Shown: positions 24,411 to 29,921 of the stretch, in pieces
Layout: each line of letters opens with the position of its first letter
Numbering within the stretch: the stretch's first letter is position 1
From: a virus
Direction: 5' to 3' (one strand)
Length of the DNA: 29,921 nt
IMG/VR virus record: IMGVR_UViG_3300010354_000398
Location: 1-29,921 of that record
Translations under genes and position numbers: made by a program
Notes under the pieces: generated by a model
Seen by the model: the letters and a program-made list of their open reading frames with translations, nothing else
The model's database searches: none
Told to the model about the DNA's origin: nothing

Positions 24411-26057
24411 TCAGTCTAAATCGCAGTCCCAGTCCGGGTCCCAGTCTGCCTCAGATCTATAACCATTGTCATAGTCCCTGCCCTGGCTGTGCTTATCCCA
24501 ATGCGGTGCTCGTTCTCTCAGCATCCAATTAATCTTACGATCTATTTCTTCTTCAGTGGAGTGCTGTGGCTTATAGCCCATTTTAACGGCCCATTCTCTG
24601 GCTCGGCGTTCTTCGTCTCTAATCAATTCATAGTGCTCAGAGACATCTTCTCTATAACCGTAGGTTTCAATTTCTGTGTGATCTATACACCCTTCCTGTG
24701 AATACTTTCTCAGTGCCAACCTCAATGCAGCCAAGTCCGCACTTCTACGAGTGTATAGTGCGTCATGTACCTGTAATAACACATTGTCTTGGGGTATAAG
24801 GTCTCGCAGACTACGCATAACTTGGCTTTCGAATTGTTGATAAGCATAGGCCAAGGTCCTGCTTTGTAATAGTGTTCCACTTTCACTGGTCAGCAGGTCA
24901 CGGTCTTCTTCGGGTATGAGATTTTCTTTCTTGATATATTGGAATATGGCTCGTTGTAGTTGTTCTACTTCTGTCCTAAAATTGCCAAACCACGGATCCT
25001 GCTTTAGCGCTTCTCTGCTTTGGGGATCTTTGATAATCTGCGAGATAGCAGGCCAATGCCAACGACCTTGATTGTCTCGCCAACCCATGCGATCAAAGTT
25101 AGCACCAAATCCCACGGCAGTTATAACTTCTTTGATCAAATCCTCACGCCAACGAGCCAGGCCTTTAACTCGCAGTAGATCTGCCAGCCTGCGCCTATGA
25201 GCACTTTTATGATCCAAATATTCAAGTATGTAGGTATACGAGTATTCTGGGTCTACTGTGCCAGCAAGGGTATACATCCAATGGTAAACGCTGGCGCTTA
25301 AATCATACTGATGGCAGTCACCCAAAGCCGCGTGTCTAACCTGTCTGGGTGCTGACTGTAGATTAAGTCCTCGATAGTAAGTTCTACCAAATCTCGACTC
25401 TACAGGCAGTTGAGGCAGTAAGTGTCTATCATCTATCCTAAAATATTCCGCTACAAGTCGAATAGTTTTGGCAACCAAATAACTGTGCTTGACAGTTTTG
25501 AGGTATTCTGGACCCTGTTTGGTAGACAAGACATCTTCAGTGCTACGAATATATCGCTCAAGACTGCCCATGTCAATTTCTACAAAATGCTCCATACCTG
25601 ATTCAGCAAGTTGACTGATTTCTTCAAGTTCGTCAGGTGAGTAAACACTAAGCACACATTCTTCAGGTGTTTGGCTTGCGGCCACAATTTCAAGTGGGTA
25701 TCGTAGTTCAATCATAGTTTGGTGTCCTGTGGTCATTCTATTGCCAATAGTATGTATTTTGAATAGTGGAAAGTTTTGGTGAAACCAATCACGAAGCCAA
25801 ATTCTCTTAGGTCGTTCTTGAATTACACCTTGTTGAGTTTTGAGATTATACCAATTTACGGGTATTTTATTATCATCCAATTGTTCATCTGTGGCCAAAA
25901 CAATGCCACGGGCAATCTCTTGATTAACCAGTGCTAAATGTAAACCCCAATGGGCCTCTATTTTATCAATTGGAGTTTTTGGAGATACCTCGCGGTACCT
26001 ACGCACCACCTCGGTTAATTCGTAGGGATGCTTGATTGAAAAATTAGTTTTATACAT
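24411..26057 (-). CDS. Short, divergent family A-like nucleic acid polymerase (548 aa)
   Basis: I choose ATG 26055-26057 (AGGA six bases upstream) over an ATG 12 codons earlier with poor spacing. Palm and finger motifs of family A polymerases appear in order, numbered from this start. GR (224-225) is followed by NLQSAP (232-237) and VR-A, as in GR...NLQN-P. Motif A YDLSAS has catalytic Asp252. Motif B reads K-x7-FG (Lys309, Phe317) where DNA polymerase I has K-x7-YG. Motif C QVHDAL has Asp432. The motif A Glu (steric gate) is Val, and the HDE Glu of motif C is Ala. No 3'-5' exonuclease motifs are seen. The region after motif C resembles single-subunit RNA polymerases (T----AD----L--A-R). A DNA polymerase is more likely because of NLQ--P, but an RNA or mixed polymerase is not excluded. 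First gene after the early promoter. Confidence 0.72.
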   Translation of the reverse strand: MYKTNFSIKHPYELTEVVRRYREVSPKTPIDKIEAHWGLHLALVNQEIARGIVLATDEQLDDNKIPVNWYNLKTQQGVIQERPKRIWLRDWFHQNFPLFKIHTIGNRMTTGHQTMIELRYPLEIVAASQTPEECVLSVYSPDELEEISQLAESGMEHFVEIDMGSLERYIRSTEDVLSTKQGPEYLKTVKHSYLVAKTIRLVAEYFRIDDRHLLPQLPVESRFGRTYYRGLNLQSAPRQVRHAALGDCHQYDLSASVYHWMYTLAGTVDPEYSYTYILEYLDHKSAHRRRLADLLRVKGLARWREDLIKEVITAVGFGANFDRMGWRDNQGRWHWPAISQIIKDPQSREALKQDPWFGNFRTEVEQLQRAIFQYIKKENLIPEEDRDLLTSESGTLLQSRTLAYAYQQFESQVMRSLRDLIPQDNVLLQVHDALYTRRSADLAALRLALRKYSQEGCIDHTEIETYGYREDVSEHYELIRDEERRAREWAVKMGYKPQHSTEEEIDRKINWMLRERAPHWDKHSQGRDYDNGYRSEADWDPDWDCDLD

Positions 26058-26104
26058 ACTGTATCCTGATATTTTTTTAACGCCATATTCCATTCCCCTA
26101 ACTT

Positions 26105-26114: not shown

Positions 26115-26143
26115 AGTTTATGATATCTACTGGATTTTGTCAA
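26115..26143 (-). promoter_or_regulatory. Near-consensus sigma-70 early promoter
   Basis: On the minus strand TTGACA (6/6) and TAAACT (4/6) are separated by exactly 17 bp. The start site would lie near 26107, 50 bp before the chosen polymerase start. This is the best promoter in the window and would be read by the host RNA polymerase at once on infection. Confidence 0.9.
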
Positions 26144-26220
26144 GAAAAGAGTTCTCCGTGAAACTCAGGTTGCTGTAAGAAAGACAGAAGAGGGCGATTA
26201 AGCAACTGGTTCGCTGGTTC

Positions 26221-26259
26221 ATTGGTACCATATTGGTATCATATGGATCATGATATCAT
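26221..26259. promoter_or_regulatory. AT-rich palindrome cluster (operator or origin candidate)
   Basis: The stretch holds ggtacc, catatg, atcatgat (26247-26254) and a perfect 10-bp palindrome atgatatcat (26250-26259), plus a near-direct repeat attggtacca / attggtatca. It lies 80-140 bp upstream of the early promoter, next to the 19-bp repeats. A repressor or initiator binding site is plausible. No repressor gene was recognised. Confidence 0.45.
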
Positions 26260-26273
26260 TACTACTAATATAG

Positions 26274-26328
26274 CCAGTGGCAAAACCCGAAATCAGACCA
26301 GTGGCAAGAAATCAGACCAGTGGCAAGA
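26274..26328. repeat. Iteron-like direct repeats with 19-bp tandem unit
   Basis: ccagtggcaa occurs three times (26274, 26298 and 26317). The last two are part of a perfect 19-bp tandem repeat (26291-26309 and 26310-26328, aatcagaccagtggcaaga). The repeats lie in non-coding DNA between terminator and early promoter, as iterons or operators would. Confidence 0.75.
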
Positions 26329-26340
26329 GGTCTAATAGCC

Positions 26341-26370
26341 AAAAAAAAGCCCGCTTAGGAGTGCGGGCTT
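26341..26370 (-). terminator. Intrinsic terminator ending the late/fibre unit
   Basis: The perfect 8-bp stem aagcccgc/gcgggctt (26347-26370) with an 8-base loop is followed on the minus strand by a run of eight T. It stops transcripts coming from the fibre and small genes to the right before the early control region. Confidence 0.93.
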
Positions 26371-26447: not shown

Positions 26448-26561
26448 ATGGCGTTTTTATCAAGGCTTAAAGGATACAGAATGCGTATGTTTGTGTTAAA
26501 GCAAAACCAAACAACAGCACACTCAAGACTATTTAAGTCTTATATTATTTTATACCCTTAA
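26448..26561 (+). CDS. Possible plus-strand small protein (37 aa)
   Basis: This is the only plausible plus-strand gene. ATG 26448-26450 has AAGGGA eight bases upstream and the frame MAFLSRLKGYRMRMFVLKQN runs to TAA at 26559-26561, mostly in DNA with no minus-strand gene. The product is basic and hydrophobic. It converges on the end of the 108-aa frame (17-bp overlap). No good promoter is seen (a weak TTGCTG...TATCTC). If real, it could be a regulator divergent from the early unit; chance is also possible. Confidence 0.3.
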   Translation: MAFLSRLKGYRMRMFVLKQNQTTAHSRLFKSYIILYP

Positions 26562-26871
26562 AATCTATTTCGCAACCGCAGTTTAACCGTTGTCTTCGAG
26601 TGCGTAGATTAATCTTACTTTCCGAATCCGTAATTTTATTACAAATTGGACAATTCAAAGTTTTTGGTTTCAAAAACATTAGTTGCGGGAAACCCCGGGC
26701 CTTTTGTTTGCCCATGGCTACCTTACTTTTTACTTTGGCAAACTTAGTGGGTGCTTCAATACCTATAAACCAATGCTCGGCTACTTGATCTAATATTTGC
26801 TCTAACTTCTTTCGTTCCACATTTGGATTTATGTTATAGGTATTTGAGCAAAACAATAATTTGGACAACAA
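26545..26871 (-). CDS. Zinc-ribbon ORF of unknown function, start uncertain (up to 108 aa)
   Basis: The C-terminal half has CPICNK, then a basic stretch (SKINLRTRRQRL) and NCGCEID: two Cys pairs spaced as in zinc ribbons. The N-terminal half is helical and basic (KLEQILDQVAEHW, then KFAKVKSKVAMGKQKARGF). No ATG opens the full frame: the outermost start is TTG at 26869-26871 inside the upstream gene, GTG at 26818-26820 has no ribosome site, and an internal ATG (VAMGKQ) with AAGG upstream would give only about 55 aa. A nucleic-acid-binding protein is likely. It is the last gene before the terminator. Confidence 0.45.
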   Translation of the reverse strand: MLSKLLFCSNTYNINPNVERKKLEQILDQVAEHWFIGIEAPTKFAKVKSKVAMGKQKARGFPQLMFLKPKTLNCPICNKITDSESKINLRTRRQRLNCGCEIDFKGIK

Positions 26872-27234: not shown

Positions 27235-28035
27235 TTAGGGTTGTGTAGGAGTTGGGAATTGCTTTTCAGGTGGTTGAAAGTTTGCCCTATAACGACCTAT
27301 ACCTTTGGTTATTCTTAGGTCATCCATTCTAAAATAACCTGTTCCTGTGGCAGGTGCGGCAGTTAATCTGTTATATTCATTGTAACCATTGTTGCCCAAC
27401 ATGGTGCCACCACGAGTGCTGTCAAAGCCGCCTGTGAAATCTAATGCTTTGGTATAAGAGCCTGCGTCATAGACACTGCCATTCACTGAGATATACAATC
27501 TACCACTGGTTCGGCTAAAAGCAATATGAGTCCAAGTATTGTGTGTGACTCGCCTTGGATGTGTGTATACAGTTACCACAGGACCAGGATCGATGTCACC
27601 ATTATACCAACTTATAGCCCAACCTGGATTTGTGGTGTTCCAACCATAAAAACTCCAGTTAGGTGATACTGTTACCGAGTCCACATTCTGATAACCATTT
27701 AATGACAACAGGGCAAAGTTACCCTTATTGGCAGTAGGTTGTGTGCCATAGAAGTTGACATGAAATTCAATAGTAAAGTCGCCTGTGCCAAACTTGAAGT
27801 AGTTGTTGTCATTAGGAGCAATTTTAACCCATTGGTTGTTGTTGCCAAAGTCCAAACTATGTGTGCCAAACTTTGGACTTGTTGTGCTAAAAGTCGTCGA
27901 AGTGTTGGTAACTGTGGTTAATGTGCCCGCTTCTGTGTTAAAATTATTATCAAACCTCATAAGGTTTATAGTCTCTGCCCAAAAAGGATCAACTACTTCC
28001 TTAGGAGGTGTTTGAATTGCGTGACTGAATAACAT
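27235..28035 (-). CDS. LamG / concanavalin-like (jelly roll) protein (266 aa)
   Basis: The pattern INLMRFDNNFNTE (usually LL-FDG--), then SPKFGTHSLDFGNNNQWVKI, FGTGDFTIEFHVNF, HNTWTHIAFSRTSGRLYISV and G-Y---DDLRITKGIGRY is the LamG-like domain found in phage fibres and tail proteins; the domain fills almost the whole protein. Such domains bind glycans. The ATG overlaps the fibre stop (TAATG), so it is made with the fibre and probably decorates it or the tail tip, although direct evidence is missing. No signal peptide or enzyme residues are seen. Confidence 0.85.
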   Translation of the reverse strand: MLFSHAIQTPPKEVVDPFWAETINLMRFDNNFNTEAGTLTTVTNTSTTFSTTSPKFGTHSLDFGNNNQWVKIAPNDNNYFKFGTGDFTIEFHVNFYGTQPTANKGNFALLSLNGYQNVDSVTVSPNWSFYGWNTTNPGWAISWYNGDIDPGPVVTVYTHPRRVTHNTWTHIAFSRTSGRLYISVNGSVYDAGSYTKALDFTGGFDSTRGGTMLGNNGYNEYNRLTAAPATGTGYFRMDDLRITKGIGRYRANFQPPEKQFPTPTQP

Positions 28036-29921
28036 TATGGTTGGAATCCTCTTGCTAATGAACCCAAATAGGCACCAACTGCGGTTCCTGTGCTACCCAA
28101 GTAGACCAAACTAATTAGGTCCGCTCCGTTGCTGTTGGTTGTTAAAGTTCTAACTCCGCCTGCCCAGACTGTGTTAGCATTTGTGCCTGTGACCAATGTT
28201 CTTGTGCCTGTGCTATCCTGTCTAACCAGGAATGTTAGGCTTTGACCTTGCGTAGCGTTAACAAATCCGTTGAATGTAGAGTTGCCTGCCAAAGTCATCA
28301 CATGAATTGTTGCACTTGATGGATCAAGGAAGAATGTTCCACCGTTATAGGTTCCATGATTGAATACTGTTTCAGTGACACCTTTAACAGTGATATTTCC
28401 TGTGAAAGTTCCACCACCAAATGGACTTCCACTTGGTCCAGTTGCACCTGTAAGTCCTGTTGCACCTGTAGCACCCACATCGCCTTGTGTGCCTTGAGCA
28501 CCTGTGGCACCAGCAGGTCCTGTGGCACCTGTTTCTCCTGTAGCACCTGTGGCGCCTTGGTTACCCGCACTACCTGCCGCACCTGTGGCGCCTTGGTTGC
28601 CTTGTGCGCCCTGAGCACCTGTAGCACCAATGCTACCAGAAACACCAGTTGCTCCTGTAGCACCTACCTCACCGCTAAATCCATTGGCACCAGTGGCTCC
28701 TTGATTGCCTGTTTGGCCAGTAGCACCTGTGCTACCTTGATCTCCCTGGATACCTGTGGCACCTGTAGCACCCACAGATCCCTGGGCTCCAGCACTACCA
28801 GTGGCTCCTTGATTGCCTGTTTGGCCCGTAGCACCTGTGCTACCTTGATCTCCCTGTAAACCAACAGGTCCAGTTGCACCTTGACTACCTGTTAAGCCCG
28901 TAGCACCTGTTGATCCCTGGTTTCCTTGACTACCTGTGGCACCTTGTGTGCCTGTAGGTCCAGTGGAGCCTGTAGCACCTGCTCCACTTAATAGATCCCA
29001 GTAAGCCGCCTGTGTATTTGGCTCCCAACCTATGTTGGTGGATTGTAAACTTACATAACTGCTGCCCCCGTATGAAACAACATCATTTAAAGAATAGGTT
29101 GTGGCAGTGCTCCAAACACCTTGGTGGTTAAACCCAAGTCCAGTAGCACCTGTGGCACCGTCAAGACCTGCAATACCTTGTGGTCCAGTTGCGCCTGTGC
29201 TTCCATATTCGCCTGTGGCACCTGTGCTACCTTGACTGCCTAATGCACCTGTTGAGCCTGTTAATCCTGTGGCACCTGTGCTTCCCTGTGGTCCAGTAGC
29301 ACCTGTTGATCCCTGACTACCTCCTATTGAAAATGCCCAAGAATCAAAAGGACCTAATTGTCCACTGACTTGTCTAACTTGTACAGTCATTGATGTGCTT
29401 GAATAAGCAGTAATATCGCCTACAATGACACCAAAAGATGCTTTACCTGTTACATATGACCCTACAATGTAAGCATTTGTTCCATATGATTGGTTAACAA
29501 TAAATGTCTTACTACCAAGTGTGGTAGAGTGTGAAGAAGTGCTGGTTAATCCATCATAACCAAGTCCAGTAGCACCTGTGCTTCCCTGTAGACCAGTGGC
29601 GCCTGTTGATCCCTGAGGACCTTGGATACCTGTGGCGCCTGTGGATCCAGTTAAACCTGTGCTGCCTTGGTCACCTTGAATGCCTTGAGGACCAGTAGCA
29701 CCTGTTGATCCAGTTTGTCCAGTAGCACCTGTAGAGCCTTGGTCACCTTGAATACCTGTAGCACCTGTTGATCCTTCATGTCCAGTGGCACCTGTTGAAC
29801 CTTGATTGCCTTGGATACCTGTTGCGCCTGTGCTGCCAGTTAAGCCTGTGGCACCAGTTGATCCTTCATGTCCAGTGGCACCTGTTGAACCTTGATTGCC
29901 TTGGATACCAGTTGCGCCAGT
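28035..29921 (-). CDS. Collagen-like tail fibre protein, N-terminus beyond the window
   Basis: The frame is open from TAA at 28035-28037 to the right edge (628 codons); an internal Met at 29388-29390 is not the start, because the frame continues upstream through a beta module ([14 protein letters not shown], then [13 protein letters not shown]) and more collagen triplets. Order from the right edge: collagen block (about 29560-29921), 80-residue beta module, collagen block (29140-29325), a short carbohydrate-binding-like module ([20 protein letters not shown]...YWDLL), a long collagen block (28430-28985) and a C-terminal beta domain ([19 protein letters not shown]...[19 protein letters not shown]) known from phage fibre ends. 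It probably carries the receptor-binding C-terminus. It may be the same polypeptide as the left-edge fibre. Confidence 0.9.
28489..28553. repeat. 65-bp exact repeat, copy 2 (other copy 991-1055)
   Basis: Identical in 65 of 65 bases to 991-1055, same orientation, inside the collagen-like coding region. It links the left and right fibre segments by sequence. Confidence 0.9.
28690..28856. repeat. 108-bp period near-identical repeat in the collagen block
   Basis: The bases around 28690-28748 recur at 28798-28856 with one visible difference (ggccag/ggcccg). The period of 108 bp equals 36 residues or 12 collagen triplets. It is part of the fibre coding sequence. Confidence 0.8.
29767..29909. repeat. 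90-bp tandem repeat at the right edge
   Basis: Bases 29767-29819 and 29857-29909 are identical (53 bp) with a period of exactly 90 bp (30 residues). The window ends 12 bases after the second copy. This is a likely reason for the sequence to stop here. Confidence 0.9.

Follow-up and report, generated by a model that had tools for sequence, protein, structure and literature searches.

The TV-Pol family was defined by Iyer, Abhiman and Aravind (2008), who assigned to it a named protein of Microcystis phage Ma-LMM01, predicted the TV-Pols to be prim-pols and gave RxxxK in the fingers as one of their features (PMC2579912). CCPol, the sole TV-Pol-group enzyme tested, prefers dNTPs, retains its Glu (E174) and keeps the equivalents of E710 and F762; as CCPol-MP, this A-family polymerase needs an OB-fold partner to act as a primase (Bebel 2020, PMC7581432; Rice 2023, PMC10061031). 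A third described group, divPolA2 of barbaviruses and ICP1-like phages, comprises divergent A-family phage proteins of ~430 aa without an exonuclease, and the phages that carry it also encode a regular polymerase (Yutin 2024, PMC11348598). Here a TV-Pol-like A-family polymerase gene (24411..26093, minus strand) is compared with these systems using the ORF list, the translation, the upstream sequence, the predicted fold and the family of homologues. The gene lies in a 29,921-nt viral stretch (IMG/VR record IMGVR_UViG_3300010354_000398, positions 1 to 29,921), which is referred to in full as the window.

The polymerase gene, its motifs and its fold

Two candidate starts are available to the gene, ATG 26093, which opens the longest ORF (560 aa), and ATG 26057 (Met-13, 548 aa), which has the better Shine-Dalgarno sequence, well spaced (AGGA-6 nt-ATG). 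The protein may be 548 or 560 aa long, the Shine-Dalgarno sequence appearing to favour the start at 26057.

The hairpin, YDLSAS, K-x7-FG and QVHDAL motifs listed in the first-pass annotation were all present in the translation, and were compared across 32 aligned homologues of about 20-35% identity. The conserved beta-hairpin FGRTYYRGLNLQSAPRQVR (residues 235-253; 25335..25391, minus strand), of which residues 235-249 form the motif FGRTYYRGLNLQSAP, carries the template-side Arg R237, and R237, Y239, G242, Q246 and R253 were invariant in 32/32 members. Motif A, YDLSASVY (25284..25307, minus strand), contains the catalytic D264 and has V269 at the steric-gate position, D+5. Motif B, KEVITAVGFGA (25101..25133, minus strand), reads K321-x7-F329-G330, with K321, F329, G330 and A331 invariant (32/32) and F329 at the position of Pol I Y766 and T7 RNAP Y639. 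Motif C, VLLQVHDAL (24756..24782, minus strand), is predicted to be strand-turn-strand and has H443 and D444 followed by A445, which replaces the Glu of HDE. Wherever covered, R237, D264, K321, F329, G330, H443 and D444 were invariant, with coverage of 32/32 for the motif A Asp and 29/29 for the motif C HD; judged on this alignment, the conserved motif set in the window protein is not a product of chance. The motif A and motif C Asp residues are separated by 180 residues, compared with 177 in E. coli PolA, 179 in T7 gp5 and 275 in T7 RNAP.

Loss of the steric-gate Glu, of the HDE Glu and of the motif B Tyr had been remarked on for the window protein, where it was seen again, and it extended family-wide. 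The D+5 residue (Klenow E710 position) was Val in 24, Ser in 5 and Ala in 3 members and Glu in 0/32; the residue after HD was Ala in 21, Gly in 4 and Cys in 4, and Glu in 0/29; and the motif B aromatic residue was Phe in 32/32, never Tyr. As these substitutions are common to the whole family, they are read as an old, maintained trait and not as decay. In Klenow fragment and T7 RNAP, the residues at E710 and at the Y766 position (T7 RNAP Y639) are established as governing sugar choice. With the Pol I-type steric-gate Glu absent family-wide and Phe standing in for the motif B Tyr, selection between rNTPs and dNTPs is probably weak or differently built in the family members.

A right-hand A-family polymerase core is present in the AlphaFold2 model of the window protein, which was built on the family alignment (pLDDT 81, pTM 0.72), and its palm matches A-family structures, in agreement with the minimal A-family polymerase proposed at first pass. 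Residues 152-477 matched Pol theta, T7 gp5 and Klenow by Foldseek (E about 1e-6) and VIA-align (Z 16-18), and every PDB fold match listed was an A-family DNA polymerase; no single-subunit RNA polymerase (ssRNAP) was among the matches listed by Foldseek and VIA-align, an absence from the listing that does not amount to exclusion. Two helices (175-189 and 195-217) lie N-terminal to the hairpin in the model; the TV-Pol thumb is a two-helix antiparallel coiled-coil. Residues 1-150 were assigned no fold, and with that region so left no 3'-5' exonuclease or other nuclease domain was found in the protein. Among predicted viral structures (BFVD), the first two matches were unannotated Caudovirales proteins (30% and 22% identity) and the third was also unannotated, and virophage and giant-virus proteins (Zamilon DNA replication protein, Pyramimonas orientalis virus) ranked above canonical PolAs.

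Family members and comparison with described polymerases

With the window protein, no match was obtained in Pfam, NCBIfam, PHROGs, PDB sequences or phage tblastn searches, its score against PF00476 (DNA_pol_A) fell below the Pfam cut-off, and a first IMG/VR scan using it as the only query returned no match. A close match to an ordinary phage PolA, which would have spoken against the first-pass reading, was thus not found in the library and tblastn searches. Three related IMG/VR contigs with clear homologues (L058, L036 and the fragment L045) were identified, and the DNA pattern FGRxYxxGxx[LIM]Q...RxA was used to scan IMG/VR and bacterial genomes. All 28 IMG/VR stretches matching the pattern (28/28) and 10/16 of the bacterial stretches encoded family homologues, the bacterial carriers being Sphingomonas sp. 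Ag1 (two), Limnohabitans, Zoogloea, Polynucleobacter, an uncultured betaproteobacterium and one MAG each of Oxalobacteraceae, Rhizobiales and Methylophilaceae. Searches of one class (385 genomes) and one order (300 genomes) recovered the seed genome alone, which shows that few sequenced chromosomes carry the gene. On these sequence comparisons, the window polymerase is a member of a widespread, unnamed and unannotated phage family that went wholly unrecognised in the annotation libraries searched here, and the evidence for its fold and family membership is strong.

The family varies in length. Minimal relatives of 340-357 aa (L086:1045-2115, minus strand; L042:7137-8192, minus strand; L091:7968-9029; L093:7992-9014) are encoded within the early regions of several sister phages and carry the motifs YDIxAAAP, K..I...QG and HDGW; judged by sequence, these ~350-aa proteins are among the smallest A-family-like polymerases seen. 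A 767-aa relative with a long C-terminal extension (L087:5170-7473) is encoded by Desulfovibrio phage 7757, a 142-kb unannotated record. Profile comparison tied the Desulfovibrio and minimal forms to the family (99.4% and 98.2% probability, respectively), and both likewise lack the two Glu residues. On three contigs of Limnohabitans sp. Rim28 (G038) the polymerase gene is present in three copies that diverge from one another, which suggests several prophages.

Comparisons made by hhalign with single or shallow alignments failed to set apart even established relatives (PolA versus RNAP, E 0.17), and the measure adopted was therefore rank against negatives alone. With the broad family profile, MAP_030 of Ma-LMM01, which lies beside two transposase genes and is presumably the named TV-Pol member, scored 40.0 and E. 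coli PolA scored 36.8 over 231 columns; the 135 true negatives reached at most 23.2, and ssRNAPs at most 21.6, within noise. The top-scoring "negative", L164, was set aside as itself a TV-Pol of MAP_030 type. An IMG/VR search with MAP_030 returned only copies of at least 84% identity. These profile and fold comparisons place the family nearest to TV-Pols and PolA. A position between A-family DNA polymerases and ssRNAPs, proposed at first pass as possible support for a new clade, was not obtained, the only tree that could be built, a motif-block tree of 53 columns with several wrong anchors, being too weak.

The likeness to TV-Pols lies in a minimal A-family core without a recognised nuclease, in the mobile-element or virus context, in the absolutely conserved hairpin Arg (R237, 32/32, on the predicted strand region 223-241), in an RRM-like palm with two conserved Asp residues (D264, 32/32; D444, 29/29) and in the profile similarity to MAP_030 (40.0, above the true negatives), this presumed member being the one compared. 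MAP_030 further shares the RxYxxGxxLQ-type hairpin, an HDG-type motif C and the absence of the motif A Glu. The family differs from TV-Pols in that RxxxK is reduced to its Lys (K321 invariant, K-4 at column 317 variable), although MAP_030 as aligned here also lacks RxxxK; in that no D5 helicase fusion or neighbour was seen; in its occurrence in small tailed phages and prophages, with a 560-aa form bearing an unassigned N-terminal region; and in its absence from Pfam, PHROGs and NCBIfam. Since RxxxK is not conserved, the window protein is called TV-Pol-like and not a strict TV-Pol.

Like Pol I (E. coli PolA, T7 gp5), the family has the right-hand fold, the motif order and the A-to-C spacing, but it lacks a detected 3'-5' exonuclease, the steric-gate Glu and HDE, and has Phe at the Tyr766 position. 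To divPolA2 it shows weak profile similarity only (hhalign), and no tblastn relation was found between the window protein and the AUR84708 group; AUR84708 keeps the motif A Glu (YDFKAFE) and FDE, whereas the window family has no Glu. Homologues of divPolA2 annotated as hypothetical were observed in Vibrio phage ICP1 isolates (L139:25472-26761, minus strand; L215).

Phage context, upstream region and candidate functions

The terminase and portal genes of the window phage relate it to Phage DSL-LC06 (Dishui Lake) and to Pelagibacter phages HTVC111P/026P/112P/202P, and it is a small, aquatic-type phage. Early-region ORFs gave HNH-type matches only against PHROGs, and HNH genes adjoin the polymerase gene; for the ORFs scanned, the earlier description of the polymerase as the only recognisable replication protein therefore holds. 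No helicase was recognised in the phage, and neither a primase nor a proofreading nuclease in the early region. Ten relatives sharing its head genes (capsid, terminase) carried the 560-aa form (2/10), the 350-aa form (2/10) or neither (6/10).

An unannotated OB-fold-like protein of 110-130 aa with an INADSxP motif was encoded at L088:7345-7719, L042:8192-8575 (minus strand), L096:5374-5703, L099:523-879 (minus strand), L114:4077-4469 (minus strand), L116:3172-3489 (minus strand) and L153:5954-6322 (minus strand). Its model (pLDDT 82) has the order strand-strand-strand-helix-strand-strand, and its best PDB neighbours were the OB folds of SSB, RPA, PriB and MCM10, matched at a modest level (E about 0.01, Z about 6); it is predicted to be an OB-fold protein. 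As in CCPol-MP and PolA-SSB primases, the polymerase adjoins this small gene in several sister phages, and in two of them the genes overlap (by ATGA at the polymerase start in L088, and at the start of the 350-aa polymerase in L042); some phages that lack the polymerase carry the small gene too. The window phage differs from CCPol-MP systems in having no OB-fold partner within the window and no helicase in the operon, and hosts of the window family are proteobacteria or unknown, not Bacillota. Because CCPol retains its Glu and prefers dNTPs, its activity is not simply transferable to the window family.

Upstream of the gene, consensus scanning found a promoter-like TTGACA-17-TAAACT (26115..26143, minus strand) and, closing the preceding transcription unit, an intrinsic-terminator-like hairpin followed by a T run (26347..26370, minus strand). 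These consensus matches suggest that the polymerase gene opens its own transcription unit, which makes its earlier designation as the first early gene plausible. The intervening gap contains iteron-like direct repeats, namely two perfect 19-bp units and a third TTGCCACTGG core (26274..26328, minus strand; TRF and core search), and short tandem repeats of 11 bp (ATTGGTACCAT, x2.2) and 8 bp (ACTGGTTC, x2.8) (26205..26244, minus strand; TRF). Arrays with an 18-25 bp period were found upstream of 7/33 polymerase genes versus 4/124 other genes (p 0.002), a hint that the iteron-like repeats may mark a candidate origin.

We regard as somewhat probable that the protein is a catalytically competent, TV-Pol-like replication primase-polymerase, probably free of exonuclease, that initiates phage genome replication, carries it out or both; enzymatic activity, primer-independent start, sugar choice and origin function are what we infer here. 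The polymerase would be made from its own promoter and act at the nearby iteron-containing origin, where, needing no pre-made primer, it would synthesise primers or a first strand, helicase action and bulk synthesis being left to host enzymes. The fold, the BFVD and profile ranks, the invariant catalytic residues, the swapping of polymerase versions among relatives, the OB-gene overlap, the upstream iteron-like repeats and the precedents of CCPol-MP and the TV-Pols argue for this as indirect evidence of function; the Glu and dNTP preference of CCPol, the absence of an OB partner and recognised helicase in the window phage, the OB gene found elsewhere without a polymerase, the lost RxxxK, upstream iterons in only a fifth of family members and the ~150 N-terminal residues without an assigned fold argue against it. 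Among the three functions considered at first pass, primer synthesis fits best, given the resemblance to TV-Pols, the OB-fold partners of sister phages and the iteron-like repeats.

A primer-dependent A-family DNA polymerase without proofreading or the usual sugar gate, serving repair, gap filling or host-primed replication and having no primase ability, is a less probable alternative. The closest solved folds are DNA polymerases, the fingers spacing of 180 residues is DNA polymerase-like and E. coli PolA ranks with the best matches to the profile, but the early region lacks a helicase, primase and proofreading nuclease, the 32 aligned members all lack the steric-gate and HDE Glu residues that the canonical DNA polymerases checked retain, and some sister phages show the OB-gene overlap of PolA-SSB primases. 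Late-gene transcription by a phage RNA polymerase, the remaining first-pass suggestion, was not supported, and a single-subunit-type enzyme transcribing phage genes is considered improbable: within a shared right-hand fold superfamily, the small residues at D+5 and after HD, where DNA polymerases carry both Glu residues, recall T7 RNAP (Gly, Ser), but the finger length is that of a DNA polymerase, with the 275-residue A-to-C spacing missing, the signature D[GA][ST]CSG of the ssRNAPs compared (DGSCSG in T7 RNAP) is replaced by DLSASV, ssRNAP profile scores lie in noise, and repeated promoter-like sequences were not found in coding-strand intergenic gaps (7 weak 18-mer matches versus 239 in the T7 control). 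The 639-equivalent is moreover Phe, and in T7 RNAP Phe at this position is established as weakening ribose selection. Least probable is a catalytically weak protein kept mainly for DNA binding, origin recognition or regulation; the long region 1-150 without an assigned fold and the two missing active-site Glu residues would suit it, but neither the two catalytic Asp residues nor the motif B Lys nor the hairpin Arg vary among members that have otherwise diverged strongly, and a family with no need of catalysis would not be expected to preserve them.

Extending the primase-polymerase reading, we tentatively suggest a widespread phage family that starts chains de novo without the Glu/Tyr-based sugar selection of DNA and RNA A-family polymerases, using dNTPs, NTPs or both, and whose primers, made at an iteron origin, are of DNA or mixed; the 350-aa forms would then rank with the smallest known A-family primase-polymerases. 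An A-family set that is natural, widespread and divergent and lacks the textbook sugar-selection residues throughout would make testable both the choice between DNA and RNA and how little suffices for a primer-free chain start, and for ~30 kb phages in which no replication gene had been recognised it suggests a strategy of replication.

Neighbouring genes in the window and its relatives

In the polymerase's place, some of the relatives without it carry an unannotated protein of ~230-270 aa beside zinc-ribbon and OB-like genes (L141:1887-2627; L153:5104-5796, minus strand; L053:369-1181), possibly an alternative replication protein, and a 250-aa protein occupies a comparable position at L145:17595-18344 (minus strand). 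Upstream of the window polymerase, a small protein with two CxxC-like pairs (26545-26871, minus strand) is zinc-ribbon-like, and relatives repeatedly have a similar zinc-ribbon gene close to the polymerase, for example at L088:6677-7144. A DUF6641 (PF20346) gene lies beside the polymerase at L194:13197-13682 and in L196, L197, L198, L203 and L204, these loci belonging to Limnohabitans, Polynucleobacter, Oxalobacteraceae and Rhizobiales. Genes with collagen-like Gly-x-y repeats (GATGATG), probably parts of tail fibres, are located at 28035-29390 (minus strand) and about 1-1900 of the window.
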